In this document: positions 26,536 to 50,959 of the stretch, piece after piece | How positions within the stretch are numbered: the stretch's first letter is position 1 | Layout of the letters: each line of letters begins with the position of its first letter | From: a virus | Virus record (IMG/VR): IMGVR_UViG_3300009128_001768 | Span: 59,374 to 123,373 of that record | Strand: one strand, 5' to 3' | DNA: 64,000 nt | Program-made: the position numbers and the translations under genes | The notes under the pieces: generated by a model | Databases searched by the model: none | Seen by the model: only the letters and a program-made list of their open reading frames with translations | Told to the model about the DNA's origin: nothing

Positions 26536-28380
26536 TCACCTTACGGAAATCTTGATATCGGTATCTGGATATTTTAATTCAAAGATTGAACCATCTGGCC
26601 CTATTACCATTTGTTGAAATGTGTTCGCGTCGACGTTGAACGATACATCGCTATAAACTCTTTCCTCTACAGTCCCCGTAACATTCGTTACTTTGAGATC
26701 GACCAATGAAATTACTCCTTGCGTGTTCAGTACTACATTCGTAATATCCGACAACGCTATTGGCATATCAATTTGGAAGTTTTTTGTGTCTAATATTCTT
26801 GTCAAAGCCTTGATACACGACTGGGCGACTTGTGTCTTGTTTGATGTTGGATGCGCAACTATTTCCAAGCTTACAGCAAAATTAACAACTTGCGCATCTA
26901 AAATATCAAATGCATCACTTACGGCCCGAAATTCGTTTAGATATTTCCGTAGGTTCTTCTTTAGCGTATCTGGAGTTAGGCCCAGCTTTTTATCTTTGTC
27001 TCGAGACACAACAAATATCTGTGATGCCAATGAATTAATTGGGTTCGGACGAACACCAACACGGTACACTCTCCCAAATTTATTGGGTAAAGTGTATATT
27101 CTAGAAACCAAATCTTCTTTCGTGATAATTCTGTTCTGCGCTTGTCGGGAGGCAGGAATCTGAACTCGAAGTTCTTCTAGCGTAGGGGCGTTATCAGCAC
27201 CGGAAGCGGGATCGTCATTCAGCACATCCACTGACGCTCGGACTGCAGCTGCACCAGATGCCGGCGCCCTGCTATCAAACGTCAGTATTAGCGAGTCGAC
27301 AGTCTTAATTGTCGATGCAGCAACATTATGGTTCAATCCACCGCCGAAACGATACGTAATTTTTAGTGTAGTATTCTTTGGTGCTATACCAAGAGTGTGA
27401 GTTTGAAGCAACGAATTGGGGTCAATCGTAAATTTACCAAACGTCTTCTTACCATATAGCGGCAACGCTAGTTCAGCAGGGTCCGGAACAATATCATTGT
27501 CCAGCGTTGAGGCATCACCGGCGCCGAACCTTAATTTAGTTAATTTTGTGTTGTAATCATAAGTCGTTGTGAATCTGTAGGGCGCAGGAATTATTTCAAT
27601 ATTATTAGGAACTTGATCAGCATCTTCAGTAGTATTTGCAACCACCTCAAAAACGGTGTCTTGTGTTAGGTTGTTCACTTCATAGTACACGTTCTCTTCT
27701 ACATCTTTCACGCTTATTATTTCTGTTATATTTTCAGACGCTAATGTTAGTGTTCTATAGGGTTTATGAACATTTGGAATTTTTATCGACTCCGTTTTTT
27801 CTTCACCAGAAAGACAAATTCCTAACCTAGTAACAACATAACTGACTGGATTCCCAGAGTCATCGGCCTCTACAAGGACTGCATTGTAAAGATAGTTTCC
27901 GAGATAATCTTTCTCTGTAAAATCCAGATCTTCTACCAGAGAAAATGGAACACCCTTAGCAGAGGCTAGCCTTGTACCCTGTCCAACTTTTGGTAGCAGC
28001 GTTGGAGAAGGCTCATACTCGCTACCCACAAGCTCGGCTGGGATTTCAAAATAAAATGTAACCCCGCAAACAGCCGGCGCTGCGCCCCGGACTTTAACAC
28101 CCGCGCTTTTTAAGTGTTTTTGTACATTTTTGCTCTCGATGGCAGTAGCCCAATTCAATTCGTTAAATTGGTGGTCCAAATAAAACGCCATCGAATCACC
28201 GACAAACGCAGCCATATCAAGCAGCAACCCTCCTAAGCTAGCTTCAGTGAAATCTCTTATCTTATCAGGAAAGTAAACCCTCGCATGCGTTAATAATTCT
28301 GCTCGAAAAGAATTGAAATCTTTTGCAAGATAACTTCGCTGTAATTCTTTCTTAAGGTCTTTTTTGATGTCTGATGCCAT
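26536..28380 (-). CDS. Baseplate wedge protein, T4 gp6 / baseplate J-like
   Basis: The N-terminus (DIKKDLKKELQRSYL, DFNSFRAELLTHARVYFPDKI, FTEASLGGLLLDMAAFVGD) is characteristic of gp6/J-type wedge proteins of contractile tails. The middle carries the J-like features ELRVQIPASRQAQNRIITKEDLVSRIY and PNKFGRVYRVGVRP, and the C-terminal half is a mixed alpha/beta domain. The length of about 614 residues is close to T4 gp6. An ATG at 28380 is preferred to the in-frame TTG at 28386 because it begins MASDIKKDLK. Either start couples it to the TGA of the gp25-like gene. It should form the wedge ring around the hub and drive sheath contraction. Confidence 0.85.
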   Translation of the reverse strand: MASDIKKDLKKELQRSYLAKDFNSFRAELLTHARVYFPDKIRDFTEASLGGLLLDMAAFVGDSMAFYLDHQFNELNWATAIESKNVQKHLKSAGVKVRGAAPAVCGVTFYFEIPAELVGSEYEPSPTLLPKVGQGTRLASAKGVPFSLVEDLDFTEKDYLGNYLYNAVLVEADDSGNPVSYVVTRLGICLSGEEKTESIKIPNVHKPYRTLTLASENITEIISVKDVEENVYYEVNNLTQDTVFEVVANTTEDADQVPNNIEIIPAPYRFTTTYDYNTKLTKLRFGAGDASTLDNDIVPDPAELALPLYGKKTFGKFTIDPNSLLQTHTLGIAPKNTTLKITYRFGGGLNHNVAASTIKTVDSLILTFDSRAPASGAAAVRASVDVLNDDPASGADNAPTLEELRVQIPASRQAQNRIITKEDLVSRIYTLPNKFGRVYRVGVRPNPINSLASQIFVVSRDKDKKLGLTPDTLKKNLRKYLNEFRAVSDAFDILDAQVVNFAVSLEIVAHPTSNKTQVAQSCIKALTRILDTKNFQIDMPIALSDITNVVLNTQGVISLVDLKVTNVTGTVEERVYSDVSFNVDANTFQQMVIGPDGSIFELKYPDTDIKISVR

Positions 28381-28382
28381 TG

Positions 28383-28880
28383 TCAACTCGCGCTATAGAT
28401 TATTACTTCAAGAATCCTGTTCTGGACGTTTAACTTCGGAACACTATAAGTGATTCTAACACCGACTTTTGCGACGTTCTTGTTGTCAAAATACTCAGTA
28501 ATGGGTTCGAATGTGGATGGAATCACATAGGGCATGTATTTACCGACGGCGCGACTTATCCTATTTATCGCCTCAGTTTGCCCATCTTCGCTTTGAAGCT
28601 CAAACGACAACTCCATTAAGTTCGCACCGAAATCAGGAAACCCCAACCGTTCACCGTGATTTGTGAGGATTAAGTTCTTAAAATTATCGCTAACTTGATC
28701 AGCCATAGAATAATTCATTTTAATAAACTCAGTTCCCTCCGACGACAGCGCCACGGGGGTTTTAATCCCAAAAGCTATATTCCTTTTTTGCTCTTTCTGT
28801 CGAAGCTTCCGGGCCTCGGCTTGTTCACCAACAGACCTAAAAGAGTAAACTTGTCTATCTCCTAATTTCGTTAACGCCAT
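28383..28880 (-). CDS. Baseplate wedge protein, gp25/gpW family
   Basis: The 165-residue protein has the compact gpW/gp25 fold pattern: VSDNFKNLILTNHGERLGFPDFGANLMEL (in pieces: NFKNLILTNHGERL, FPDFGANLMELSFE), a regulatory helix, then EAINRISRAVGKYMPYV and a final beta strand pair. T4 gp25 and P2 gpW nucleate the sheath at the baseplate. It is directly upstream of and overlaps the gp6-like gene, as in most contractile phages. The N-terminal 45 residues are a charged extension. Little doubt about the family. Confidence 0.9.
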   Translation of the reverse strand: MALTKLGDRQVYSFRSVGEQAEARKLRQKEQKRNIAFGIKTPVALSSEGTEFIKMNYSMADQVSDNFKNLILTNHGERLGFPDFGANLMELSFELQSEDGQTEAINRISRAVGKYMPYVIPSTFEPITEYFDNKNVAKVGVRITYSVPKLNVQNRILEVIIYSAS

Positions 28881-38587: not shown

Positions 38588-39046
38588 CTACCCGCTGTAC
38601 ATTGAAGCAACATAATCGCTGCAAATACCTGCACATATCGATAATTGCTCAGAGGAATATGACGCTGTTTCTGGCATCACACATATACACTTATCGTTTA
38701 ATTCGCTACCGGGATACGCCCATATATATCCGGAAGATGTCATGGTGTATGCGTCGTTTTGATGCCAGAAAACATGCCACACTTGATTATCACTTAGAAA
38801 ATAAGCATACGTGCTTAAGTCTTTAGCATGAATAAACAATTTTTCTCTGCGCTGGAGGAACCAAGAAATATCTAATTGGTATTCACCAAAATCATGACCC
38901 ACAATAAACGTTTCGGAACTTTCACCCTGCCGAACATCGACCTCAGCATAGAAACCTGCCTGTAGCGCTTTATCAATATAGTCTGGATTATTTTCTAAGG
39001 ACGGCACGGGGCCGTTGGTGTTTCCTCGATGAGCAATAAAAATCAT
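38588..39046 (-). CDS. Glycerophosphodiesterase-like (PLC fold) small enzyme
   Basis: The 152-residue protein starts MIFIAHRGNTNGPVPSLENNP, with the HRG and E-N pattern of GDPD/PLC-like phosphodiesterases, then AEVDVRQG and VGHDFGEYQ, which carry the Glu-Asp and His of the metal site. It is much shorter than a full GDPD (about 240 residues), so it is a minimal version or has another role. Small proteins of this type occur in capsule clusters beside sugar nucleotidyltransferases and HAD phosphatases, as here: its ATG overlaps the HAD stop (ATGA). A phosphodiester-linked substituent on a glycan is one possible target. Confidence 0.7.
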   Translation of the reverse strand: MIFIAHRGNTNGPVPSLENNPDYIDKALQAGFYAEVDVRQGESSETFIVGHDFGEYQLDISWFLQRREKLFIHAKDLSTYAYFLSDNQVWHVFWHQNDAYTMTSSGYIWAYPGSELNDKCICVMPETASYSSEQLSICAGICSDYVASMYSG

Positions 39047-39675
39047 TTGTAATTTCCCGCTATTATTTCTTCCATCAATTGGGTATTTACATCTCTAAAA
39101 TTGCTGATCTCGTAAACAGTTGCGCCTGAGCCGCGAGCCGAGGCTAAACCTGTTACAGAGTCTTCGAATATTATGAAGTCCTCAATTGAGCCGCCTAATT
39201 GAAGCATCGCCCTAACATATGGTTCGGCGTGTGGCTTTGTGTTCTTTACATCATTATTCGTTATTAACACATCTAGGTACTTCATAAAACCAAGATTATT
39301 TAGTAGTGTAACTGTCGAAGCACGGTTCGCATTCGTTACTACCGCTATGTTTTTATTTTCTCGTCGTAAAAATTCAAACATTTCAATTTTGTCTTGATAG
39401 TCTTCAGAGTCTAACATACTCATCATTTTATTTGTGATTATTTTTTTTCTTTCGTATACAGCGTCTACTTTATTAAGAGTAAAGTACCCCTTTTGACAAA
39501 GCTTTATGAGCTTATCACGAGTAGTTATAGTTGACTTAAGGACAGAAATATCTTCTTGAGTTGTTAGCTTTAAATTCAAGACCTCGTCAATTGCTGCTAG
39601 CGTTGCTTTAACTTGTAGCTCAGTGGTGTCTACAAGCACCCCGTCATTGTCAAAAATAAAAGACGTATATCCCAA
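39043..39675 (-). CDS. HAD-superfamily phosphatase/phosphoglucomutase-like
   Basis: A subclass I HAD enzyme of about 210 residues: SFIFDNDGVLVDTTE (nucleophile Asp and D+2), AVVTNANRAS (motif II), NTKPHAEPY (motif III Lys) and FIIFEDSVTGLASA (motif IV). The open frame reaches back to 39765 inside the previous gene, but the likely start is a TTG at 39675, just after that gene's TAG, with GGAG ten bases upstream. This gives a normal HAD length. It may remove a phosphate from the product of the neighbouring nucleotidyltransferase pathway or serve as a GmhB substitute in heptose synthesis. Both are inference. Confidence 0.8.
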   Translation of the reverse strand: MGYTSFIFDNDGVLVDTTELQVKATLAAIDEVLNLKLTTQEDISVLKSTITTRDKLIKLCQKGYFTLNKVDAVYERKKIITNKMMSMLDSEDYQDKIEMFEFLRRENKNIAVVTNANRASTVTLLNNLGFMKYLDVLITNNDVKNTKPHAEPYVRAMLQLGGSIEDFIIFEDSVTGLASARGSGATVYEISNFRDVNTQLMEEIIAGNYK

Positions 39676-40386: not shown

Positions 40387-41313
40387 TCAAACTCCCCTTA
40401 CATTTGGATAGCTTTCCTTAAACCATTTGCATGTCAATTGTATACCCTTCCGCAGAGGCGTATACGAGGCAGATGGCCAACCAAGAGAAAGAAAGCGCTT
40501 ATTAGAGCTTGGTTTCTTAAATTGACCGCTTGGCTTTGTAATATCCCAAACAATTTCTCCGTCGTATTCTAAACTTTCACAAATCATGCTCACTATGTTT
40601 TTGATGCTTACCTCGTTTGTCGTGCCTATATTCACAGGAGCAGCCAAATCATAATTTTCTAATAAAAAAAGCAACGCAATTGCAATATCTCTTGAGTACG
40701 TAAATTCCCTTAATGGAGACCCATCGCCCCAAAGAACAGGTGGATTTCCCGTTTGCTTTGCTTCCCACACCTTTCTTATTATCGATGGTATGACATGCCC
40801 ATTTTCTAAATCAAAATTATCATAAGGACCGTACAGATTGTTTGGCACTGCGCAGATGAAGTTACATCCATATTGCTGACGAAGGGCCCTTGAGTGTACG
40901 TCCAGCATCCTCTTAGCGTACGCATAACCAAAGTTGCTGGGGTGCGGCTCACCGTCATGAATCTGCTCTTCTGTTAGAGGATACACAACTGCATCAGGGT
41001 ATACGCAAGTTGATAACAAAGAAACAACCTTCCCTACTCCAAGCTTATGTGCAACCGACAAGACGTTTGTATTTATCCGAATATTATCAGAAAAAAAGTC
41101 CGCGACAAAATCAGAGTTGCCCTTTACTCCGCCCACCCTGGCAGCAAGATGTATTATTGCTTCAGGACAGTGGTCCCTCACCATACATCGAGTATCATCA
41201 AGATATCTTAAGTCATAATCTTTCGAGCCAACAAATATAAGTTCATGCTCTGTCTCTATGCTTCGAAATCCAGCTCCGACCATCCCTGTTCCGCCTGTGA
41301 TTACAACCCTCAT
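40387..41313 (-). CDS. fcl: GDP-L-fucose synthase-like epimerase/reductase
   Basis: An SDR enzyme of 308 residues. MRVVITGGTGMVGAGF binds NADP(H); HLAARVGGV, LLSTCVYPD, the catalytic pair in YAYAKRMLD and VPNNLYGPYDNFD are those of GDP-4-keto-6-deoxymannose 3,5-epimerase/4-reductase. With Gmd it completes GDP-L-fucose synthesis from GDP-mannose. The two genes are about 3 kb apart and separated by the RmlB-like, GDPD-like, HAD and nucleotidyltransferase genes. A role on a heptose (as in Campylobacter 6-deoxyheptose) cannot be excluded. ATG 41313 overlaps the preceding stop as ATGA. Confidence 0.86.
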   Translation of the reverse strand: MRVVITGGTGMVGAGFRSIETEHELIFVGSKDYDLRYLDDTRCMVRDHCPEAIIHLAARVGGVKGNSDFVADFFSDNIRINTNVLSVAHKLGVGKVVSLLSTCVYPDAVVYPLTEEQIHDGEPHPSNFGYAYAKRMLDVHSRALRQQYGCNFICAVPNNLYGPYDNFDLENGHVIPSIIRKVWEAKQTGNPPVLWGDGSPLREFTYSRDIAIALLFLLENYDLAAPVNIGTTNEVSIKNIVSMICESLEYDGEIVWDITKPSGQFKKPSSNKRFLSLGWPSASYTPLRKGIQLTCKWFKESYPNVRGV

Positions 41314-41969
41314 ATCTCCATAACCTCATAATAGTGACCAATAAGAAATTTGTTTCCTTTGCTTAGCGAAGTTAAGCGATAATTTGAGTTATAGTCTTCT
41401 GGCATCATGATCCTAAAATCGAAACTCACCCTGGTAACGCCAGTCTTGTTAGGGAGGTTTCCATGAGTGCACTGGTTTCCATTAAAGCGCACAATCTGAC
41501 CAGGCATTAATTCAAGCTGATGAAAATCCATCTTCCCCGGCTCGCTTTCCGCAATAGTTGTATTACTCTCGAACATAGGAGTTAATGCAAGTATAAAATT
41601 TGTCTCCCCAAGAGGGTGATTGTAGTCGCTATCCTTATGCCATCCGCCCACTGCTACGTTATTTGGGAGGTGTACCCGAAATGTAGGCCACTTTTGATAT
41701 ATGAGTTGGTCTTTCGCATTAGTAATGGGAGCTATAAATTCTCTAATAAATTTTTGATATAATTCAAGAAATTCTGGCCAGCCAGATCTCATTTTGTTAT
41801 AAAACTTTTGATGGAATATGGTATCCGAATCTTTTCCCGGCTTATCAAAAAACTCATATTCGTCAATGTGCATTTCATGCAGATACTGTAAATTACCACA
41901 ATCAAATAAACCAGATATGGCTTCGACGAATTGATAATCGTCAACGCTGTAATCGTAATACTTTTCCAT
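41310..41969 (-). CDS. 2-oxoglutarate/Fe(II) oxygenase-like, StrG/phytanoyl type
   Basis: The 219-residue protein has GGWHKDSDY (His and Asp of the iron triad), TLAL-type strand LALTPMFESNTT, and CTHGNLPNKTGVTRVSFDFRIM, giving the distal His and the Arg that binds 2-oxoglutarate. This combination fits the double-stranded beta-helix oxygenases used in sugar and antibiotic tailoring, close in pattern to StrG-like proteins. It should hydroxylate or oxidise a sugar or nucleotide-sugar. It overlaps the HldD-like gene by 29 bases, so it may act on the heptose product. An ATG at 41969 is the only clear start. Confidence 0.8.
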   Translation of the reverse strand: MEKYYDYSVDDYQFVEAISGLFDCGNLQYLHEMHIDEYEFFDKPGKDSDTIFHQKFYNKMRSGWPEFLELYQKFIREFIAPITNAKDQLIYQKWPTFRVHLPNNVAVGGWHKDSDYNHPLGETNFILALTPMFESNTTIAESEPGKMDFHQLELMPGQIVRFNGNQCTHGNLPNKTGVTRVSFDFRIMMPEDYNSNYRLTSLSKGNKFLIGHYYEVMEI

Positions 41970-42759
41970 AATCCTCGATTCCTGCTTCGAGCTGATACTC
42001 TGGGGCCCAGCCCGGTAGCCACTTTTCTTTATCGCTGCAGGTGAAAAATTGATAGCCCTCTGGAATCGTGTGAGTGGAGTGATAAGAATATTCGATTTCT
42101 AGCAAATCAAGAATATCCTCAAATGCCCTTGATTGACCGCTACCAACATCGTAGTATGATCCTCTTAACGATTCGTAATTCTTGTAAGCATGAATGTTTG
42201 CAGACACAACATCTTTCACATACACAAAATCTCGAAGAGGTCGTTTTGGAAATAACTTGCACTCCAAATTTCCTTGGTGCCTTTTGTACATCTGATACAC
42301 AATCGACGCCATCTTCCCCTTGCGTTCCTCCCCCGGGCCATACACATTAAAATAACGTAATGCGATGCCAGAATTACTCACCACATAATCTTCTGCGACG
42401 TACTTACTCCATCCATATAAGTTCGATGGATAGTCTTCAGTCACTCCATAGCTTGCAGCAGAAGAAGAGTAAATCATTGGAACGCTATTGTTGACGCACC
42501 AATCCATTAGAAACTTTGTTGTCTCATAATTTCGATGCATCATAAAATTAACGTTTTGTTCTAATGTGTCGGAACACGCGCCGACATGAAAAATGACAGC
42601 AGGAGACGCCTCTTCCAGAAAATGGTTCCACACGTCTTTCCATCTAGCGTCATCCAAATTGTCTTCAGACAAACAAAAAATTTGCGCTTCTTCTTTTAGG
42701 GTTGCGGCAAGATTCTTCCCAATAAAACCGTCAGCTCCTGTGACTAATACACGTTGCAT
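41941..42759 (-). CDS. hldD: ADP-heptose 6-epimerase-like, HldD family
   Basis: An SDR enzyme of 272 residues with VLVTGADGFIGKNLA, the HldD hallmark GACSDT, the catalytic YGWSKYVAE and ALRYFNVYGPGEE. These point to epimerisation of ADP-D-glycero-D-manno-heptose to the L-glycero form, the precursor of LPS core heptose. It is 40-60 residues shorter than usual HldD. The loss seems spread over the C-terminal half and not one clean deletion. It overlaps the HldA-like kinase gene by 16 bases and completes the heptose set. Confidence 0.87.
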   Translation of the reverse strand: MQRVLVTGADGFIGKNLAATLKEEAQIFCLSEDNLDDARWKDVWNHFLEEASPAVIFHVGACSDTLEQNVNFMMHRNYETTKFLMDWCVNNSVPMIYSSSAASYGVTEDYPSNLYGWSKYVAEDYVVSNSGIALRYFNVYGPGEERKGKMASIVYQMYKRHQGNLECKLFPKRPLRDFVYVKDVVSANIHAYKNYESLRGSYYDVGSGQSRAFEDILDLLEIEYSYHSTHTIPEGYQFFTCSDKEKWLPGWAPEYQLEAGIEDYGKVLRLQR

Positions 42760-43487
42760 TGTATCGTTGAAACCCCCCTCTTTGTAACAATTTCAGAAGC
42801 GCACTTATTTGCAAATTTTATACTTTCTATTATATCAGAATTTTCTAAAAACTTTACCACAAGAGCCGCTAGAAAACTATCGCCCGCGCCCGATACATCT
42901 TTTACCTCAGCCTTGTTGACTGGATAGACCACTTCCCTATATACACACCCTCTTGGGCCTTCAGTCCGAATAATTTTTTCGAACATTGTTTTATCAATAT
43001 AGCTTTTCGAGCGCTGGTATTCTGTATGATTGATCTTGATATATCTAGCATCATGAACCCACGTCCCTAAAATTTTCTTAGAATCAATAAATACGTTATT
43101 ATGGTTTGAGCATATTATTTTTATATCTGCTTCAGTCAAGAAACCCTTATCATAGTCTGATATTACAATCAGGTCATAATCATATGATATCACGCTTAAG
43201 TCTATTCTTTCTATTTCGTCTACCGAATCGGCCCTAAAGAACATGTGATTACTCTCTTCATGAACGTACCGTTTTTTAGTAATATCCCCCCAGTTATCGT
43301 TTGTAATAATATCGCTTGTCACACCCAAGGCGTGAATGTTTCGATGAACATTAGCAGCCATACCCGGGTTGTCAGTCCGATATTTTTCATTTAGAACAGG
43401 AACAGGAATATCTGGACATAAGCGGCTTGCATTACAATAGACAAAAATATCCTGACAACTTTCTCCTATGACCAATATCTTTTTCAT
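42744..43487 (-). CDS. hldA: Heptose-7-phosphate kinase-like, PfkB family (HldA domain)
   Basis: The enzyme is a PfkB-type sugar kinase of about 247 residues: KKILVIGESCQDIFVYC, CPDIPVPVLN, NPGMAANVHRNI, LIVISDYDKGFLTE, and the catalytic DVSGAGDSFLAAL with the general-base Asp of GAGD. The substrate-loop words (PDIPVPVLNEKYRTDNPGMAANV, in pieces) match the kinase half of bifunctional HldE. It is compact, since HldE kinase domains are nearer 320 residues. ATG 43487 is preferred to an in-frame GTG at 43493. It should make heptose 1,7-bisphosphate. The nucleotidyltransferase half of HldE is a separate gene at 47583-47981. Confidence 0.85.
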   Translation of the reverse strand: MKKILVIGESCQDIFVYCNASRLCPDIPVPVLNEKYRTDNPGMAANVHRNIHALGVTSDIITNDNWGDITKKRYVHEESNHMFFRADSVDEIERIDLSVISYDYDLIVISDYDKGFLTEADIKIICSNHNNVFIDSKKILGTWVHDARYIKINHTEYQRSKSYIDKTMFEKIIRTEGPRGCVYREVVYPVNKAEVKDVSGAGDSFLAALVVKFLENSDIIESIKFANKCASEIVTKRGVSTIQCNVY

Positions 43488-43507
43488 TCTCACGCTTAAC
43501 TTAAATT

Positions 43508-43990
43508 TTAGAAAAAGGGAAGACCGTCTCTCTTAATGCAGATAATCGCTGGTTCAGCCATAAGATATGCGTCGATCATTGCTTTTTCAGTTTCCTGTTG
43601 ATTTCTGGGGAAATACCCAATTGTATTTTTTAAAAGCCCAATCAGCCCCTCTGGGTTTAATGGGCGGTGTGTCGGTCCATGGGTCGGATAATCAGCTTGT
43701 CCTACCAGCATTACAGGTAACTTCTGCTCATCGATGTCTATTTTGATCTGCTCAAACGGTCTCTCAATAAGAAAGGGGGTAATAGAATAGACAACTGGAC
43801 GTAAGCCCTCCAGAGCCATTCCTGCAACCATACTGATCATTGATTGCTCACAGAGCCCAGCGTTCAAATATCGTTCTGGCCATCGATCTTTGAATTCCTC
43901 CATCTCTTGTTCAACATCTCCAGTCACTAAAACAATGTTCTCATCTTTTTCAGCCAACTTCACAATTACTCTTCCAAAAGCACGTCTCAT
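43508..43990 (-). CDS. Transketolase, pyrimidine-binding subunit (no C-terminal domain)
   Basis: The 160-residue protein is the PYR domain of a transketolase: RRAFGRVIVKLAEKDENIVLVTGD, YLNAGLCEQSMISMVAGMALEGLRPVVY (pieces NAGLCEQSM and GMALEGLRPVVY, with the cofactor-activating Glu), FLIERPFEQIKID, and PTHGPTHRPL. It ends at CIKRDGLPFF, where the third (TKC) domain normally begins, so that domain is absent. Its ATG overlaps the stop of the TPP subunit (ATGA), and the two form one enzyme. It should supply sedoheptulose 7-phosphate, the entry point of nucleotide-heptose synthesis. A sugar-branching or acyloin role is an alternative. Confidence 0.88.
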   Translation of the reverse strand: MRRAFGRVIVKLAEKDENIVLVTGDVEQEMEEFKDRWPERYLNAGLCEQSMISMVAGMALEGLRPVVYSITPFLIERPFEQIKIDIDEQKLPVMLVGQADYPTHGPTHRPLNPEGLIGLLKNTIGYFPRNQQETEKAMIDAYLMAEPAIICIKRDGLPFF

Positions 43991-44727
43991 TCTTCACAAT
44001 CCTCCAGCTCTTTCATCGCCTGTTCTTCATAATCAGGGGCCGGCCACTGAGCGTGCCAACATGGTTGGTTCTCCATATAGCTGACTCCTTTCCCCTTTAT
44101 CGTATTAGCTATTATAAATCTGGGCTTATCTTTTTCGTGTTCCTCTAGAGCAGCCAAGATTTCAGCATAAGAATGTCCATCAACTTGTGAAACATGCCAT
44201 CCAAGAAGCGCTGTAACTTTTTCCATATTCGGAATAGGCAAAATGTCTTTCGTATATCCAGATCCCTGTATCCCGTTCCAGTCAGCTATTATGACAAGAT
44301 TGTCTAGCTTGTAATGCGCTGCTAGCAGCAACGATTCCCATGTCGTTCCCTCCTGACACTCTCCATCGCCTACAATCACGTATATTTTCCCGGGCTTGTT
44401 TTTCATTTTTCTAGCTAGCGCCATTCCTATCGCGGCTGGAAAACCATGCCCCTCACTACCGGTGGTATAATGAATTCCGTTCTTTTCGTCTAGTGTGGGG
44501 TGACCCTGTAACCTTGGATTGAATCCCCTCTCTCTCAATAAAACATAATAGGGCCAGCAAGCATGACCCTTACTTAAGATAAATTTGTCGTTGTCTGTTA
44601 ACACATAATCGTATAAAGAAACCAACAATTCAACAGCGGAAAAACAACCACCGTAATGATAGCCACCGTTTGCTTTGGATAGCTTTATGGTTTCGCGTCT
44701 TATCTGTTTTGATCTTTTGTTCAGCAT
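43987..44727 (-). CDS. Transketolase, thiamine-diphosphate-binding subunit
   Basis: The 246-residue protein is the N-terminal TPP domain: GCFSAVELLVSLYDYVL, KFILSKGHACWPYYVLL, GSEGHGFPAAIGMALARK, and the TPP motif GDGECQEGTTWESLLLAAHYKLDNLVIIADWNG (GDGECQEG ... NLVIIADWNG). It has the expected length for the split bacterial transketolase type. GAGGGG lies six bases before the ATG, a strong ribosome site. It forms an operon with the PYR subunit, the HldA-like kinase and the HldD-like epimerase. Phage-encoded transaldolase is known in cyanophages; a split transketolase beside heptose genes is a different arrangement. Confidence 0.9.
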   Translation of the reverse strand: MLNKRSKQIRRETIKLSKANGGYHYGGCFSAVELLVSLYDYVLTDNDKFILSKGHACWPYYVLLRERGFNPRLQGHPTLDEKNGIHYTTGSEGHGFPAAIGMALARKMKNKPGKIYVIVGDGECQEGTTWESLLLAAHYKLDNLVIIADWNGIQGSGYTKDILPIPNMEKVTALLGWHVSQVDGHSYAEILAALEEHEKDKPRFIIANTIKGKGVSYMENQPCWHAQWPAPDYEEQAMKELEDCEE

Positions 44728-44736
44728 TCTTTCCCC

Positions 44737-45549
44737 TCAAGCTAATGGATAATAATCTTGAATTTCTTTTTTGTAAGGTTTATTTGGAAAATCTAATCCC
44801 GATATAGGAAAATTACACGTTGAAGCGCTGACATCTTTTACCAGCGCTTTTCTCACAAAACTTACTTCAATAAGCGGAGGAAAACAATGCCCATCGACGT
44901 TAATCTTTCCCAAAGAATTATTTGGGTGGATATGAAAAGCGTAAAAATTTTCATTAAGGGTCTTCATCACATCGTAATACATGTCAAACAATCCAACATT
45001 TATCTTCTGATAAACTGATCTATAAAATGAATCAAAATAAGGAGTTAGCCCGTAGTCATCGTTGGGATTGGCAATAAATTTTTCATCAGTGTCCACAGCG
45101 ATTAAATGAAATTCAACTAATAACTGATCAATCTTTTTCAATTGCTTGCTACTAAGAGATGCTAGCGTTGCCCATTCATCCCACTCAATATCCATCTTAA
45201 TAGTCAAACCACCGACCTCAGAATCAATCATGTCTGACAATGCTAAAAATTGATCTGACTTTTTTGCGGCAATTCCTTTTTTAATAAAAGCAAAATTGGG
45301 GTGTTCTGCTGGTAGCCTATCGACTGTGTGGTCGAATAATTTCACAGCTGTGTGTGGGAACTTATCTACAAAATCCTGTTCAAACGTAATATTATCCTCT
45401 ACGCCGAAAGCGTATAGTGTTCTGGTATTTTCACAGATTTCATGAAGAGCAACATATCCACCGTCTGACTTGTTTCCGATTCTTATTTTTTGAAACCCGC
45501 AATCATAAATCTTAATTTCTTCTAAAAATCTTTGAACGCTACCACTCAC
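44737..45549 (-). CDS. SAM-dependent methyltransferase-like, METTL24/FkbM type
   Basis: The 270-residue protein has KIRIGNKSDGGYVAL, TLYAFGVEDNITFEQDF, VKLFDHTVDRLP, and LTIKMDIEWDEWATL, the layout of the METTL24-like branch of FkbM-type methyltransferases (SAM loop with FGVEDN, acidic residue, DIEW at the end of strand 4). It probably O-methylates a sugar. The start is GTG 45549, overlapping the TGA of the dehydrogenase gene as GTGA. The C-terminal region with FHIHPNNSLGKIN and PPLIEVSFVRK is typical of this group. Confidence 0.75.
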   Translation of the reverse strand: MSGSVQRFLEEIKIYDCGFQKIRIGNKSDGGYVALHEICENTRTLYAFGVEDNITFEQDFVDKFPHTAVKLFDHTVDRLPAEHPNFAFIKKGIAAKKSDQFLALSDMIDSEVGGLTIKMDIEWDEWATLASLSSKQLKKIDQLLVEFHLIAVDTDEKFIANPNDDYGLTPYFDSFYRSVYQKINVGLFDMYYDVMKTLNENFYAFHIHPNNSLGKINVDGHCFPPLIEVSFVRKALVKDVSASTCNFPISGLDFPNKPYKKEIQDYYPLA

Positions 45550-46556
45550 ATCTTCACCATAATTCGACCAGCAGTACCCGTTTGCAAAAGATCAAACGCT
45601 TCATTGACTTGCTCTAGCGTAAATGTATGAGTAACAATTTTATCAACGTCTAGGAGACCTGCATCGTGCATCTTAACATACCGAGGTATATCTTCAGCTG
45701 GATTAGTTTTTCCACCCTGGCTAGCTTTAATAGATTTTCCAGAGCCACCAAAAAGAGTAACGCCATTAGGGATAGTTAGTTCTTCTTCTGGGGAGGGCTG
45801 TCCCACAAGAACAATTCTACCGTTTTTAGAAAGATGATGAACCATAGAGCCAATCACCCTTGAATTTCCTGTTGTGTCTATAATGACATCGACAGAAATA
45901 GCAGTCATATCATCTTTAAGCGGATTAATAAAGGTTGATGCACCGACCTCGAGGGTTTTTATACGCTTATCTTCGGAAACGTCAACAGCGATAATTGGAT
46001 AAGCGCTCTTTAGCTTTGCACCTTGTATTAGGTTCAGCCCCACACCTCCGCATCCAACAACCAGTACACTTTCGCCCATTTTAAGATCTATTTCGTTGTC
46101 TATAATTCCAAGCGCTGTTGTCAATCCACACCCAAGCAAAGCGCAAAAATTATCGGGAGTGTCTGGAGGAACAACAGTCAATCTGTTTTCAGAAACAATC
46201 GAGTATTCGCTTAACGTTGTTACCTTTCCGCTGCTTATTTTTTTTCCATTAAGGATGTATTCAGGGAATGGCGCTTCGATACCTGTACTGGGCCTCCAGT
46301 GCATCACCACCTTATCACCCGGGGAAACTGTTGTCACACCGCTACCGATGCTCTCAACAATACCACAGCCCTCGTGTCCCATTAAGTGCGGTAGAAATTT
46401 TGCGTTACCCTTGTGTCCCCTTATTTCGTGCAACTGCGCGCCACATAACCCGCTTACTAATATCCTAACCAGCACTTGACCAACCTTCAAGGGGGTTAGT
46501 TCAACCTCTCTGATGGTCAGTGGAGAATTAAGCTTTTCTAAAATTGCTGCTCTCAT
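45546..46556 (-). CDS. Zinc-type alcohol dehydrogenase-like oxidoreductase (MDR)
   Basis: The 336-residue protein has the MDR layout: a GroES-like domain with SGLCGAQLHEIRGH and HLMGHEGCGIVESIG (Cys, His and Glu of the catalytic zinc) and a Rossmann domain with VLVVGCGGVGLNLIQ. The four-cysteine structural-zinc lobe is replaced by HWRPSTGIEAPFPEY, as in several sugar dehydrogenases of surface-glycan clusters. The N-terminus could be ATG 46562 or ATG 46556; the latter has AAGGAA six bases upstream and begins MRAAILEK. It probably oxidises or reduces a sugar alcohol, deoxysugar or nucleotide-sugar intermediate. Confidence 0.83.
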   Translation of the reverse strand: MRAAILEKLNSPLTIREVELTPLKVGQVLVRILVSGLCGAQLHEIRGHKGNAKFLPHLMGHEGCGIVESIGSGVTTVSPGDKVVMHWRPSTGIEAPFPEYILNGKKISSGKVTTLSEYSIVSENRLTVVPPDTPDNFCALLGCGLTTALGIIDNEIDLKMGESVLVVGCGGVGLNLIQGAKLKSAYPIIAVDVSEDKRIKTLEVGASTFINPLKDDMTAISVDVIIDTTGNSRVIGSMVHHLSKNGRIVLVGQPSPEEELTIPNGVTLFGGSGKSIKASQGGKTNPAEDIPRYVKMHDAGLLDVDKIVTHTFTLEQVNEAFDLLQTGTAGRIMVKM

Positions 46557-46566
46557 AATCATTTCC

Positions 46567-47220
46567 TTACTTTCCTGACAAAAATCGACGAATTATCGTT
46601 TCTGTCGGAAGAATTGTAGTTCTTTCTTTTAAGACAATATTAACAATCGTTTCTGCGACTTCGTCCGGGTCCATGAGGTCGTCATAATTGCTTCTGTTTT
46701 TGCACATGCCAGTTTTCATTGCTCCTGGATAAAAATCAAGAATCTTTATATCGGTTCCAATCGACTCGATTTGCAAAGACTCAGAAAACCCTCTTAGACC
46801 GTATTTGCTTGCGCAATACACCGTTTCGTTGGCAGACGGACCTCGCCCGGCAAGAGAATTAATATTGACTATTGTGCCTTTATTACGCTTTTTAAAAATC
46901 CTATATACACGTTGTATCATCAATATTTGAGACACTAAATTTGTGTTCAAAACATCCTTGATATCTGCTTCACTATATTCTAGAAAAGCGCGAGGGCTGT
47001 GGATAGCAGCATTGTTCACAAAAACCTCAATTTGGTTGGCCTCCACGAATGCTTCCAAATTATCACAAAAATTATCAGCGTTTATATCACCCGCTAACTG
47101 GTTTTTTCCGCTTAGAGGCTGTCGAGTATGCCTAAAAACTTCACAATCATTTAAATCAAAATGATTCATGAGGTGTTTTCCAAGACCCCTGCTACAACCG
47201 GTAATCAAAACTCTGCGCAT
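46567..47220 (-). CDS. Short-chain dehydrogenase/reductase
   Basis: A classical SDR of 217 residues: VLITGCSRGLGKHL (cofactor loop), VNNAAIHSPRA (NNAG-type motif), IVNINSLAGRGPS (catalytic Ser) and VYCASKYGLRG (catalytic Tyr and Lys). The C-terminal substrate loop is short. It sits in an unbroken run between the cupin and the MDR gene: its ATG follows the TGA of the cupin gene directly. It probably reduces a keto-sugar; substrate unknown. No coenzyme preference can be assigned safely. Confidence 0.85.
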   Translation of the reverse strand: MRRVLITGCSRGLGKHLMNHFDLNDCEVFRHTRQPLSGKNQLAGDINADNFCDNLEAFVEANQIEVFVNNAAIHSPRAFLEYSEADIKDVLNTNLVSQILMIQRVYRIFKKRNKGTIVNINSLAGRGPSANETVYCASKYGLRGFSESLQIESIGTDIKILDFYPGAMKTGMCKNRSNYDDLMDPDEVAETIVNIVLKERTTILPTETIIRRFLSGK

Positions 47221-47580
47221 TCAGTCACCCTTTTCAATCCTAAGACTATCACTATCAAAATGTTGCGTAGAAAATTCAAAAAGCTCTGTGTCTTCTAAAG
47301 CTATCACTCTGTGGCGAAGACCCCTATAGACATGAAAATTTTGGCCAGGGCCCAGAACAACTTCATCTGCTTCATTTATGTCATCACCCTCAGAGTACTT
47401 GACTAAAACTCGGCCCGACTGGACATAAAACACCTCGTCTTTTAACTCATGGTAATGCCAAGAACAACACTTCCCCCTAACGAAATACAGGAGCTTTCCG
47501 CAATACTCATCGCAATTAACAATCCACTTCTCAAATCCCCACCCTTTCGGTACAAATTTGATCTCTAATGAAGTTGACAA
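47221..47580 (-). CDS. Cupin-domain protein
   Basis: The 119-residue protein is a single cupin with VPKGWGFEKWIVN, KCCSWHYHELKDEVFYVQSGRV (metal ligands HYH...E) and GPGQNFHVYRGLRHRV (third His). It resembles the small mannose-6-phosphate isomerase/dTDP-sugar cupins of polysaccharide clusters. It may isomerise a sugar phosphate or a keto-deoxysugar. The start is a TTG at 47580, supported by GAGAGG seven bases upstream; no ATG precedes the domain. It follows the HldC-like gene by two bases. Confidence 0.8.
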   Translation of the reverse strand: MSTSLEIKFVPKGWGFEKWIVNCDEYCGKLLYFVRGKCCSWHYHELKDEVFYVQSGRVLVKYSEGDDINEADEVVLGPGQNFHVYRGLRHRVIALEDTELFEFSTQHFDSDSLRIEKGD

Positions 47581-47582
47581 CT

Positions 47583-47981
47583 CTAACCTCTCTCTAGAAT
47601 TTTTGTTGTAGAATAACCACCGATAAATTTGAATATCTTAACTTCACATACTTCACTCCCGGCGACTTCTTCTGGCGCGTAATCACCGCCCTTAACCATC
47701 ACATCGGGTGAAATATTTTTTACCATCTCTAATGGCGTATCACCGTCAAAAATACGGACTTCGTCTACGTATCTACATGCCTCAAGCATGAATTTTCGAT
47801 CGTCTTGAGAAAAAAAAGGTCGTCCATTACCTTTCAACTTCTTCACGCTAGTATCACTATTTAACCCAACAATAACGTACCCCAAAGAGTTACAATAGCG
47901 TAGGAGCTCTATATGTCCCCTGTGCAAAATATCGAAACACCCATTTGTAAAAACAACCTTTCTTGAAATATGTCTGTCCAA
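47583..47981 (-). CDS. hldC: Heptose-1-phosphate nucleotidyltransferase-like (HldC / HldE C-terminal domain)
   Basis: The protein is a cytidylyltransferase-fold enzyme of about 132 residues. KVVFTNGCFDILHRGHIELL holds the HxGH motif, GLNSDTSVKKLKG is the nucleotide loop, and GDTPLEMVKNISPDVMVKGGDYAPEEVAG is the domain found in the C-terminal half of HldE (pieces PDVMVKGGDY and EEVAGSE). It should activate heptose 1-phosphate with ATP (or, less likely, another NTP). No ATG precedes the conserved part. Of two TTG codons, 47981 has AGG seven bases upstream and is preferred to 47996. It lies about 3.5 kb from its partner kinase gene. Confidence 0.87.
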   Translation of the reverse strand: MDRHISRKVVFTNGCFDILHRGHIELLRYCNSLGYVIVGLNSDTSVKKLKGNGRPFFSQDDRKFMLEACRYVDEVRIFDGDTPLEMVKNISPDVMVKGGDYAPEEVAGSEVCEVKIFKFIGGYSTTKILERG

Positions 47982-47985
47982 TTTA

Positions 47986-48807
47986 TTACCTGGCAATTAC
48001 AGAGTATTTGATATTATCGAATAAAAAGAATCCACGAGGAATGCAGTAATCATAATCGACTTTTCGAATTATAGAGTGAACCTCTAAATCGCTGTTATAT
48101 TCTTTGATCGCACTAGAAACTGCATGACCCCCTGAATGAAGCGTGATAAAAACATCACTAGAATAAATCATATCGCAATATTCGAATATCGAATTCACCA
48201 CAATCTTTTCACTTTCAAAATCATTGTACAAAAATCTTTGATTATTTGGACTACTCCATGGTTCTTGTATTTTATTGCTTGCTGGAGGGTTGTTCAAAGA
48301 GTTGTGAAATGTCAATTGGTATATGCTTCTTCCAGGATACATAGAAACCAGTTTATCCACGGCTTCCGACACGGAATAGCCTCGATAATCACCAGATATT
48401 GATGTTAAGTCTAGCAAAATAGAATTTCTAGCCTTGCTTGTATCTTTTGGCTCGTAATATATTTTTGGGTATTTGTTTGTTGGCTTGAACCCAAACAACG
48501 TTTCCCAGTTAGAGATAACATTACCAGATAAATTTTCATACTTTAGCCCGGGGATGTCTCCAGCATTCCATTGTCCTGCTCTCTCTCCCTTCACAAAAGG
48601 ATTACAGTCCCACACAAGCTCTTTTATCTCAGGATTTCTGAAGTATGCTTTGTCCCAAACATAAACATCGTGTCCCGCTTCAGAAAATAGTTCTGGAAGC
48701 GTCGAAAATTGCAGGCTGTCACCCAGTCCACCAAAATACGCGGCTATGCGTATGTCTTCCAAAGCGTTCGCTATCTTATAATTCCGTCCCATACATTGTG
48801 TAACCAT
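47986..48807 (-). CDS. Putative glycosyltransferase, GT9/heptosyltransferase-like
   Basis: The 273-residue protein is only weakly recognisable. RIAAYFGGLGDSLQFSTLPELFSEAGHDVYVWD has the GLGD...F.TLP pattern of the acceptor domain of heptosyltransferase-like (GT9) enzymes. SSDVFITLHSGGHAVSSAI resembles the donor-side Gly-rich strand. The protein is shorter than true heptosyltransferases (about 320-350). It is upstream of the HldC-like gene, which fits use of a heptose nucleotide. Start ATG 48807 is chosen for GGAAAA just upstream; ATG 48792 is possible. Confidence 0.6.
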   Translation of the reverse strand: MVTQCMGRNYKIANALEDIRIAAYFGGLGDSLQFSTLPELFSEAGHDVYVWDKAYFRNPEIKELVWDCNPFVKGERAGQWNAGDIPGLKYENLSGNVISNWETLFGFKPTNKYPKIYYEPKDTSKARNSILLDLTSISGDYRGYSVSEAVDKLVSMYPGRSIYQLTFHNSLNNPPASNKIQEPWSSPNNQRFLYNDFESEKIVVNSIFEYCDMIYSSDVFITLHSGGHAVSSAIKEYNSDLEVHSIIRKVDYDYCIPRGFFLFDNIKYSVIAR

Positions 48808-49559
48808 TTTTCCGGATCGTACCTATCAAAAAGTTCATAATCTTGTCTATATCCAAACTCTAACAAAATATCCAATGACTCTTTTGTCAAGCGGGGCCAT
48901 CCGAAATTCCGTTTCTCGCGAGGTTGTCCAAAGCGATCATCGCTGAGCTTTTTTAATGGACGGGCATTTGCATGAACAAACTTAAAATTATCATCACGTA
49001 TAACGCTGCTTATGTAATGTGAAGCTGAATCCATATCATCTAAGTGCCCTATATAGTCGATGCGCGCCGAGACGTTGGCTAAAATTTTGTGCTGCGGTAC
49101 TATATGACCATCCTCTCGAAATTTATGCAAATTTATTTTTTTGTGGCCCACGGTCGAAAGTAAACCATCTTCATATAAGAAATGATTTGTAATATACTCG
49201 TTAATATCCGAGTATAAAAATGGTCTATCTGCGTTGGAATAGAATGCAGAAACAAACCTCTCGATTGGTTCTCTTGCAATAGTAAACACAGTCCAATCAT
49301 CACCTAAAGACTGGACTCTGTTCCATTGCCCGGCCCACGTAAAATACTCATCATGAATCGATGTTCCGTAATTGTAATCAACACCGTCTATATTGGGCTT
49401 ATATTTTTGGTGATGGCCTAACCCCCCAGCAATTTCAAGAAGATAATTCGCAAGGGAGGTCTTGACAGTCGTGCAACCGGCTTTTTTTATCTCTATATAA
49501 GCAATTTTAAGCTCATCTAGATAATAGACTATAGTGGGGCCCCAAGTCACAGCTTCCAC
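48771..49559 (-). CDS. Sulfotransferase-family protein
   Basis: The 262-residue protein has a P-loop-like 5'-PSB in YIEIKKAGCTTVKTSL and a 3'-PB in FTIAREPIERFVSAFYS. These are the two PAPS-binding motifs of carbohydrate sulfotransferases (Sulfotransfer_2 type). The rest has many aromatic residues and histidines. It should transfer sulfate to a glycan hydroxyl; no PAPS-synthesis gene is in the window, so the donor would come from the host. The start appears to be GTG 49559, overlapping the stop of the methyltransferase gene; no good Shine-Dalgarno decides it. It overlaps the next gene by 37 bases. Confidence 0.8.
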   Translation of the reverse strand: MEAVTWGPTIVYYLDELKIAYIEIKKAGCTTVKTSLANYLLEIAGGLGHHQKYKPNIDGVDYNYGTSIHDEYFTWAGQWNRVQSLGDDWTVFTIAREPIERFVSAFYSNADRPFLYSDINEYITNHFLYEDGLLSTVGHKKINLHKFREDGHIVPQHKILANVSARIDYIGHLDDMDSASHYISSVIRDDNFKFVHANARPLKKLSDDRFGQPREKRNFGWPRLTKESLDILLEFGYRQDYELFDRYDPEKWLHNVWDGIIR

Positions 49560-50221: not shown

Positions 50222-50959
50222 TTATTTAGCATGTCGTTTGTCTTCAAATTCAAACCCAAAAAAATCAATGTCTTCTTTAAATCTTTTTGCAATAAAATCT
50301 ATTGACTCTTGATCATAATAATAGCTGTAATGTCGTCGTGCATTACCTCTTTCGTCTAATTTCCTATTTGGAGCCCTAATTGGTCCGCCTATATCTGGAA
50401 ATAAATCTTTTAAGGGAGCATCTTGTATACCCAGTATTCCACACACTTTTTGATAATCTTCGTCCAGATTATCAAACCCTATATAAAAATTTAGGTCATC
50501 TTTCCCAAACCAATTAAGGAATGGTGCCCAGTGGCGGTGGTCGAACAATGGGTCGTTTAAATCATGAACATTCCAATCTTTGCTCCCCAAAAGAAATTCT
50601 TTAAATGAGGGCCCTGCTTTCACACCGCTTTTGCAAATCTCGAGCCACTGGTTCCAAGGCCTTGCTTCATGTCTATATTTCGCAACCATTCTATCCCATG
50701 GGTTTCTTATGACTGTAAACTTAAACAAGCTATCGAATTTAGCGTATATATCTGGTACCAAATGCTTACCAATTGGGCCAGGTCGGGAGGCTCGAACCAA
50801 ATACCAGCGTTTAATTTCAGAATATGTAAGGTGCTGTGTAGCGCCTTTGTTATCCCAGGGGACCAGCTCGGTCGATGGAGCACGTAAGGAGTATTCTATA
50901 CTTGTCCCTGCACAATTACCAATGTGAATAAAGACAAATCCTCTGGTTAGATCAATCAT
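50222..50959 (-). CDS. Sulfotransferase-family protein
   Basis: The 245-residue protein has FVFIHIGNCAGTSIEYSL, the 5'-phosphosulfate-binding loop, and FTVIRNPWDRMVAKYRHE, the 3'-phosphate motif RNPWDR. It is a typical Sulfotransfer_2 family member with predicted transfer of sulfate from PAPS to a carbohydrate. It is more canonical than the one at 48771-49559 and not a close copy of it. No transmembrane anchor is present, unlike eukaryotic Golgi relatives. Its neighbours are a GT2 enzyme upstream and the methyltransferase downstream. Confidence 0.87.
   Translation of the reverse strand: MIDLTRGFVFIHIGNCAGTSIEYSLRAPSTELVPWDNKGATQHLTYSEIKRWYLVRASRPGPIGKHLVPDIYAKFDSLFKFTVIRNPWDRMVAKYRHEARPWNQWLEICKSGVKAGPSFKEFLLGSKDWNVHDLNDPLFDHRHWAPFLNWFGKDDLNFYIGFDNLDEDYQKVCGILGIQDAPLKDLFPDIGGPIRAPNRKLDERGNARRHYSYYYDQESIDFIAKRFKEDIDFFGFEFEDKRHAK

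Follow-up and report, generated by a model that had tools for sequence, protein, structure and literature searches.

What is a split transketolase doing among genes for the synthesis of a nucleotide-activated heptose in the genome of a virus? The question is raised by a gene cassette in a 64,000-nucleotide stretch of viral DNA, referred to here as the window, which comprises bases 59,374-123,373 of the 123,373-base IMG/VR virus record IMGVR_UViG_3300009128_001768. A preliminary description of the window had suggested that the transketolase boosts the supply of sedoheptulose 7-phosphate to a phage-encoded ADP-heptose pathway. We find that the class of thiamine diphosphate (ThDP) enzyme carried by such cassettes has been repeatedly exchanged in one operon slot, and we propose, with confidence that is about evenly balanced, that the cassette serves to make an activated heptose-type sugar bearing, or extended by, a two-carbon unit, and to transfer it.

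The open reading frames (ORFs) named in the preliminary description are all present on the minus strand where it had placed them, several with alternative upstream starts, and Pfam and NCBIfam searches agreed with the families given; four intervening genes, encoding a cupin, two dehydrogenases and a methyltransferase-like protein, had gone undiscussed there. Together these genes form an uninterrupted minus-strand run from 48,807 to 40,387 with intergenic gaps of -29 to +20 bases, an apparent operon, which reads in this order:

47986-48807, minus strand: GT9-type heptosyltransferase-fold protein, 273 amino acids (aa); predicted fold, without a Pfam match.
47583-47981, minus strand: HldC-like nucleotidyltransferase, 132 aa; TIGR02199 146 bits, phrog_7878.
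47221-47580, minus strand: cupin, frequent in phage heptose cassettes; Cupin_2, phrog_7851 190 bits.
46567-47220, minus strand: short-chain dehydrogenase/reductase (SDR), proposed ketone reductase; adh_short 119 bits.
45546-46562, minus strand: zinc-dependent alcohol dehydrogenase (ZnADH), proposed keto-group maker; ADH_N and ADH_zinc_N, phrog_2640.
44737-45549, minus strand: methyltransferase-like protein, METTL24/FkbM type; from matches of aligned family members.
43987-44727, minus strand: PP (ThDP-binding) subunit of the split transketolase, TktN, 246 aa; Transketolase_N 102 bits.
43508-43990, minus strand: PYR subunit of the split transketolase, TktC, 160 aa, without a C-terminal domain; Transket_pyr 75 bits.
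42744-43487, minus strand: compact PfkB kinase of the HldA/HldE-kinase type, 247 aa; PfkB, TIGR02198 114 bits, phrog_8133 290 bits.
41941-42759, minus strand: HldD-like ADP-heptose 6-epimerase, 272 aa; TIGR02197 202 bits.
41310-41969, minus strand: putative 2-oxoglutarate (2OG)/Fe(II) oxygenase with a 29-base overlap with hldD, of uncertain membership; HxD...H by eye.

The last gene of the run, towards 40,387, belongs to the epimerase/dehydratase family and is Fcl-like by our own label. The methyltransferase-like protein itself has no Pfam match, but aligned members of its family match Methyltransf_22 in 10/20 cases and Methyltransf_21 in 7/20 (E<=0.05). The oxygenase ORF also lacks a Pfam match; pairwise comparison with a bacterial ORF adjoining the transketolase in contig L092 gave a weak match (E 2e-4), and the oxygenase was not found at the equivalent place in the sister phage L006. 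Cassette proteins 100% identical to those of the window are encoded in four other IMG/VR records (L002-L005), among them the 254,743-base record L003. The set is not a chance assembly, since it recurs in conserved order across many viral contigs; two Pelagibacteraceae contigs (L055 and L056) hold it in a different order.

The position between the ZnADH and the kinase can be filled by either of two kinds of ThDP enzyme. Pattern-matched stretches of viral contigs yielded 393 relatives of the kinase, and the kinase loci analysed here are the best 80 of these plus two isolates. Defining the slot by a ZnADH followed by the kinase within 4.5 kb gave 78 loci. Of these, 41 (12 non-redundant) have a split transketolase in the slot, 31 (25 non-redundant) a single-chain ThDP enzyme and 6 (2 non-redundant) something else, while both enzymes occur together in the slot in 0/78. 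The single-chain enzyme, of 381 and 402 aa in the two isolates, combines E1_dh with Transket_pyr and most resembles pyruvate dehydrogenase E1. Counting near-copies, the GDG motif is kept in 31/31 full-length E1-like ORFs and a TPxxE pattern in 29/31, and similarity to the transketolase is only remote, pairwise BLAST aligning short segments at E values between about 1e-3 and 1e-5.

Trees of 33 kinases and 32 ZnADHs were compared with the type of ThDP enzyme, having dropped near-copies at identity cut-offs, L057 for its very long branch and, from the ZnADH tree, L176 for its length. Parsimony places at least six switches of type on the kinase tree and at least eight on the ZnADH tree. Well-supported branches alone force four switches in each tree, or five in each when L057 is included. 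Of 500 shuffles on the kinase tree, made without L057, only 5 (E1) and 1 (transketolase) were as low as the observed arrangement, and the type of ThDP enzyme, being clustered in this way, is therefore partly inherited.

If the transketolase served the heptose pathway, which genes should it accompany? Many of the viral records are fragments, so absences carry little weight. The 56 non-redundant kinase cassettes divide into 10 with the transketolase, 27 with the E1-like enzyme and 19 with neither. A ZnADH lies near the kinase in 9/10, 23/27 and 1/19 of these, respectively (32/37 with a ThDP enzyme), and an HldC in 8/10, 20/27 and 12/19 (28/37 with a ThDP enzyme). In the 42 cassettes with fuller flanks a ZnADH is found in 6/7 with the transketolase, 21/23 with the E1-like enzyme and 0/12 with neither. 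These counts indicate that the ZnADH tracks the ThDP enzyme and that HldC does not. The cupin (47221-47580; phrog_7851, labelled cysteine dioxygenase) occurs near the heptose kinase in 36/56 non-redundant kinase loci.

The view from the transketolase is similar. Across 36 non-redundant viral transketolase loci, counting same-strand genes up to 6.5 kb away, a ZnADH is present in 28, an SDR in 26, the kinase in 9, HldC in 5 and HldD in 5; the 20 loci flanked on each side by 6 kb or more hold a ZnADH in 16, an SDR in 15, the kinase in 9 and HldC in 5. The kinase is thus absent within 6.5 kb in 27/36 loci and in 11/20 of those with the longer flanks, and a TIGR02198 match is absent in 25/37 records, many of which are fragments. 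We therefore consider it unlikely that a conventional split transketolase raises the sedoheptulose 7-phosphate pool for a phage ADP-heptose pathway while the ZnADH and SDR serve something else, even though the transketolase, kinase, HldC and HldD do stand in one operon. That suggestion, made in the preliminary description, is also at odds with the sharing of the slot, in which the E1-like enzyme is the commoner occupant. By our own chemical argument, an E1-like enzyme with pyruvate as donor would be of no use to GmhA, since isomerisation cannot turn a 1-deoxy ketose into an aldose.

The transketolase itself has features that bear on the same question. The best PDB match of TktN is the N-terminal component of a split-chain transketolase (6yak, 183 bits), from Carboxydothermus, whose enzyme likewise consists of two chains and was assayed with hydroxypyruvate and aldehydes (PMC7661550). 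The two differ in that the Carboxydothermus C-terminal chain has 341 residues in the PDB entry, compared with 160 aa for the PYR subunit of the window, which is without the C-terminal domain. With near-copies included, PYR subunits of 157-168 aa are found in 53/55 complete bacterial relatives, and 48 complete viral ORFs span 158-224 aa. In a short gapped alignment to E. coli TktA, the ThDP/Mg motif, the catalytic Glu and the active-site His residues are kept by the window pair (H26, H66, H100, D155, N185, H261, E411 and H473), at what we take to be ThDP and C2-unit positions. Among the residues that we presume to be the acceptor/phosphate residues of TktA, R358 and R520 each have an Arg opposite them, S385 meets a gap, and Val and His take the places of H461 and D469, respectively. 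Three canonical acceptor/phosphate positions are thereby lost, which argues further against a conventional role in sedoheptulose supply.

Split transketolases of this build are not confined to the viruses. PYR-only forms make up a wide family in sugar clusters of bacteria and of archaeal metagenome-assembled genomes (L053-L109; Pelagibacteraceae, Chlorobium, Anaerolineales, Pacearchaeota), where a nucleotidyltransferase-PfkB fusion often adjoins and GmhA sometimes does. The Pelagibacteraceae contig L055 has a second, distant split transketolase on the opposite strand (L055:1809-6048), in a run with a sugar-1-phosphate nucleotidyltransferase ORF that is RfbF-like by eye and a dehydratase-like gene. 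Several short unannotated phage-collection records, 'Listeria phage LM 4-14-1' and similar, gave distant matches to transketolase-type proteins and may be host contamination.

What, then, might the cassette do? Computation establishes the gene content, families, folds and synteny and the repeated exchange of the ThDP enzyme. The scheme that we infer, in its every reaction, in the order of its steps and in its exact sugar, would run as follows. In a heptose submodule, the kinase would form heptose 1,7-bisphosphate, HldC would adenylate and HldD would epimerise C6, with the GmhA and GmhB steps coming from the host or, in some relatives, from extra phage genes. In a ThDP submodule, the ZnADH would first make a carbonyl on a sugar, either a heptose-type sugar or its nucleotide, and TktN with TktC would then transfer a hydroxyacetyl unit to that carbonyl. 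The SDR would reduce the new ketone, the methyltransferase would decorate the product and the GT9-type enzyme would transfer the sugar. We propose such C2-branching because the slot is shared, next to a dehydrogenase and in many cases a reductase, by two ThDP enzyme classes that can each carry a C2 unit but differ in the donors they use; the linkage of oxidoreductase and reductase genes in the viral transketolase loci (ZnADH 28/36, SDR 26/36) is as in keto-sugar branching pathways.

There are precedents for chemistry of this kind. According to a 2025 review (PMC12247030), ketone acceptors are known for only three of nine ThDP superfamilies, namely DC (YerE), TK and alphaKADH2 (E1-like); the phage slot holds two of these ketone-using kinds, TK and alphaKADH2-like. 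Among the antibiotic pathways in the same review, those for miharamycin and amipurimycin are proposed to use split-gene TKs, which would place a hydroxyacetyl unit on a keto-sugar that an oxidoreductase has formed, and E1-like alphaKADH2 enzymes, as for aldgamycin and kibdelomycin, add C2 branches that are sometimes then reduced. These pathways resemble our proposal in that a split TK or an E1-like enzyme adds a two-carbon branch to a keto-sugar, whereas the phage cassette has heptose enzymes and a PYR subunit without a C-terminal domain. In yersiniose synthesis, too, the ThDP enzyme YerE joins two carbons to a keto-sugar destined for a surface glycan, and reduction of the ketone is proposed as the next step; YerE differs from the phage enzymes in being a flavoprotein of the decarboxylase class that acts on a CDP-sugar, with no heptose enzymes alongside.

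Going beyond the two-carbon proposal itself, we put forward more tentatively, at rather less than even confidence, that phages possess a modular system which adds carbon branches to a heptose-type glycan. In this system two minimal enzymes, one a PYR-only split transketolase and the other a fused E1-like protein, would have been exchanged repeatedly in one slot, probably with an acetyl branch in place of a hydroxyacetyl one and hence a changed glycan, and the transketolases free of the C-terminal domain would be a subclass acting on ketones or sugar nucleotides. We know of no earlier viral ThDP sugar-branching system.

Several observations weigh against a branching role and need to be set beside it. 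The residue comparison depends on a short gapped alignment and on presumed residue roles. In 52 non-redundant bacterial transketolase loci, a PfkB-type kinase is present within 6.5 kb in 25, an HldC-like domain in 27 and GmhA in 12, compared with a ZnADH in only 12, and these bacterial neighbourhoods fit the supply of a ketose phosphate to a nucleotide-sugar route at least as well. Both these counts and the joining of the transketolase to GmhA, kinase, HldC and HldD in contig L056 and phage L166 speak for a supply of sedoheptulose 7-phosphate. The two ThDP types are not strictly exclusive, since transketolase and E1-like matches occur together outside the slot in three loci (L046, where they are 2.6 kb apart, L059 and L062). 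On the ZnADH tree, 200 and 189 of 500 shuffles were as low as the observed arrangement; type is not clustered there beyond chance, and the forks of that tree are therefore a noisy guide. As to the precedents, section 2.3 of the 2025 review describes the branching role of the split transketolases as itself unproven in vitro (PMC12247030), and the ketone-using E1-like KbDH was limited to pyruvate as donor, for which reason the two slot-fillers may add different units.

A further explanation would be that one operon serves two unrelated products, with the kinase, HldC and HldD making ADP-heptose and the ZnADH, ThDP enzyme and SDR making some other small unit or sugar with which the heptose has no contact. 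The submodules do occur apart, HldC being present in 12/19 kinase cassettes that lack a ThDP enzyme and 27/36 viral transketolase loci having no kinase nearby. However, they are interleaved in one operon whose order is conserved in many phages, and they are found together in Pelagibacteraceae, so that we find this explanation rather doubtful. A phage ORF of 915 aa (L020:5242-7989) also stands against it, fusing GT9, FkbM methyltransferase and SDR directly before a ZnADH-TktN-TktC-kinase series. When the window proteins were compared with this fusion by BLAST, those of 44737-45549 and 47986-48807 gave no significant match and only the SDR did (E 5e-8), which means that the argument from the fusion rests on domain names.

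On the heptose side, the evidence supports the reading of the cassette as a nucleotide-heptose set with a heptosyltransferase-fold gene, and here the preliminary description has held up well. The kinase, HldC-like and HldD-like proteins have the heptose models TIGR02198, TIGR02199 and TIGR02197 as their respective best NCBIfam matches, although all three score below the curated cut-offs (114/345, 146/181.5 and 202/274.6 bits). The kinase belongs to phrog_8133, a 246-position phage family whose function is unknown in PHROG; its AlphaFold model has a predicted local distance difference test (pLDDT) score of 93.2, and the seven PDB entries closest to it in fold are without exception HldA. Among PDB entries the HldC-like protein matches 5x9q best (89.6 bits). 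The HldD-like protein has 1eq2 (HldD) as its best match, and the alignment keeps the positions of Y140 and K178, which we take to be the HldD acid/base pair in E. coli numbering; a KGxMAS-type motif occurs in several relatives.

The gene at 47986-48807 required a fold comparison, since Pfam GT9 (PF01075) gave the window protein no match, nor was there any in the 254.7-kb record at E<=0.01; Pfam GT9 is present in 17/41 viral records, with the window protein not among the matches. Its AlphaFold model (pLDDT 86.5) was compared with the PDB using Foldseek, and 28/28 matches at E<=0.001 were heptosyltransferases/GT9 (TibC, WaaC, WaaF, 3tov). VIA-align likewise placed heptosyltransferases/GT9 at ranks 1-8 (Z 12.9-14.0, root-mean-square deviation 3.6-4.4, 216-235 aligned), the next row having Z 11.0. 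The predicted fold thus agrees with the GT9-like label first given to this gene, the window protein being shorter (273 aa) than TibC and other GT9-fold heptosyltransferases and sharing about 9-15% identity with them.

Set against the ADP-L,D-heptose pathway GmhA-HldE-GmhB-HldD, the phage cassette has the kinase, nucleotidyltransferase and epimerase families in common; it differs in the short phage family of its kinase, in its extra ThDP enzyme, ZnADH and SDR genes, and in having no detected GmhA or GmhB. A GmhA-type SIS_2 domain was found neither in the window's record (E<=1; controls 14/14) nor in the 254,743-base record, so that the isomerase reported as missing was not found in either, and such a domain occurs in 2/42 viral transketolase records searched. 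It does appear in relatives. In phage L166 the split transketolase, kinase, HldD and HldC share their run with a GmhA-like SIS protein (TIGR00441 52 bits, cut-off 209), and the Pelagibacteraceae contig L056 reads GT9, GmhA, methyltransferase, kinase, ZnADH, TktN, TktC, SDR, HldC, HldD, with its HldD above the cut-off (341.9 vs 274.6) and its kinase close to its own (300 vs 345). TIGR01656, which we take to be the GmhB family, matched in 0/12 phage records, including that of 254.7 kb (controls 14/14). The haloacid dehalogenase (HAD) gene at 39043-39675, raised earlier as a possible replacement for GmhB, is instead beta-phosphoglucomutase-like (best match TIGR02009, 85.8 bits, cut-off 153.35).

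Is a phage operon of this kind without parallel, as was first thought? The isolates P-TIM68 (NC_028955.1; Haifavirus) and S-SM2 (NC_015279.1; Nilusvirus) carry a largely collinear cassette, with ZnADH, ThDP enzyme, compact kinase, HldD and HldC in the same order as the window and, in P-TIM68, an SDR before and a cupin after. They differ in that their ThDP enzyme is single-chain and pyruvate dehydrogenase E1-like (381 and 402 aa), where that of the window is a split transketolase. Their annotations name a 'transketolase central region-containing protein' (the ThDP enzyme), a carbohydrate kinase, a nucleotide-sugar epimerase and an HldE/HldC-type transferase. The 'phosphoheptose isomerase' annotated in P-TIM68 (L201:11193-11531) and S-SM2 (L202:14419-14730) has no SIS domain and gives weak HAD-type phosphatase matches (EcbF/BcbF; PNKP for S-SM2); it is likely a misannotation and may possibly be a GmhB substitute. 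Phage heptose genes are also in print, heptose kinase, isomerase and epimerase genes being reported for cyanophage SynMITS9220M01 (PMC7378029), and gmhA is counted elsewhere among well-characterised auxiliary metabolic genes (PMC9238414).

The target of the sugar was considered through the genes that accompany the cassette. A crude hydropathy scan of the first 254,000 bases of L003, in which a polytopic control protein gives 8 hydrophobic windows, covered 299 ORFs of at least 60 aa and found none with more than 3 hydrophobic windows, apart from one 1,552-aa ORF with 19, which we guess to be tape-measure-like. A second scan of L003, covering 560 open stretches across piece joints and the end, found none with at least 4, and these crude scans thus revealed no flippase or polymerase candidate in L003. 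The cassette is flanked by very long ORFs that look fibre-gene-like by eye. Taken together, the want of a flippase-like protein in these scans and the fibre-like flanks mildly favour protein glycosylation, and hint that the target may be a glycan on tail fibres or on another protein made in the cytoplasm.

Alternatively, and compatibly with any of the explanations above, the heptose genes may alter host lipopolysaccharide (LPS), for example to block superinfection, and not virion proteins, with the ThDP part only tailoring the heptose. Members of GT9 include WaaC and WaaF, which are heptosyltransferases of LPS and reach Z-scores equal to or above that of TibC, and alteration of host LPS is proposed for the 24 LPS genes of P-SSM2 (PMC2984593). 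The scans of the 254.7-kb record and the fibre-like flanking ORFs count against this, although export by the host could be used; we regard host LPS as a real possibility that falls somewhat short of an even chance.

Other genes in the vicinity may be recorded briefly. Two sulfotransferase-family genes adjoin the cassette, at 48771-49559 and 50222-50959, and suggest a sulfated glycan. The 254.7-kb phage record contains a 527-aa ORF (L216; G002:C1:218576-220159) whose start is GroEL-chaperonin-like by eye. For the baseplate protein of the window (26536-28386) there were 6 matching phage records, with identities of about 29-31%, these being Microcystis phage Mel-JY01, four Flavobacterium phage records and one uncultured phage.

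The E1-type phage cassette is already known. In open-licence PMC literature, with subscription papers outside the scope, we found in print neither a phage split-transketolase cassette nor ThDP-enzyme exchange nor a branching role in phages, and no open-licence full text combined 'phage', 'ADP-heptose' and 'auxiliary metabolic genes'. If our proposal is right, it corrects a tempting but weakly supported story in which a phage transketolase pushes flux into heptose. The natural and repeated exchange of two enzyme classes would provide a ready-made test of donors and acceptors and, given that section 2.3 of the 2025 review reports the antibiotic split transketolases as not characterised in vitro (PMC12247030), the small phage pair (246 + 160 aa) would make the question of branching directly testable. 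Viruses would then be a natural store of ThDP carboligases for the construction of sugars that are branched or have more carbons.

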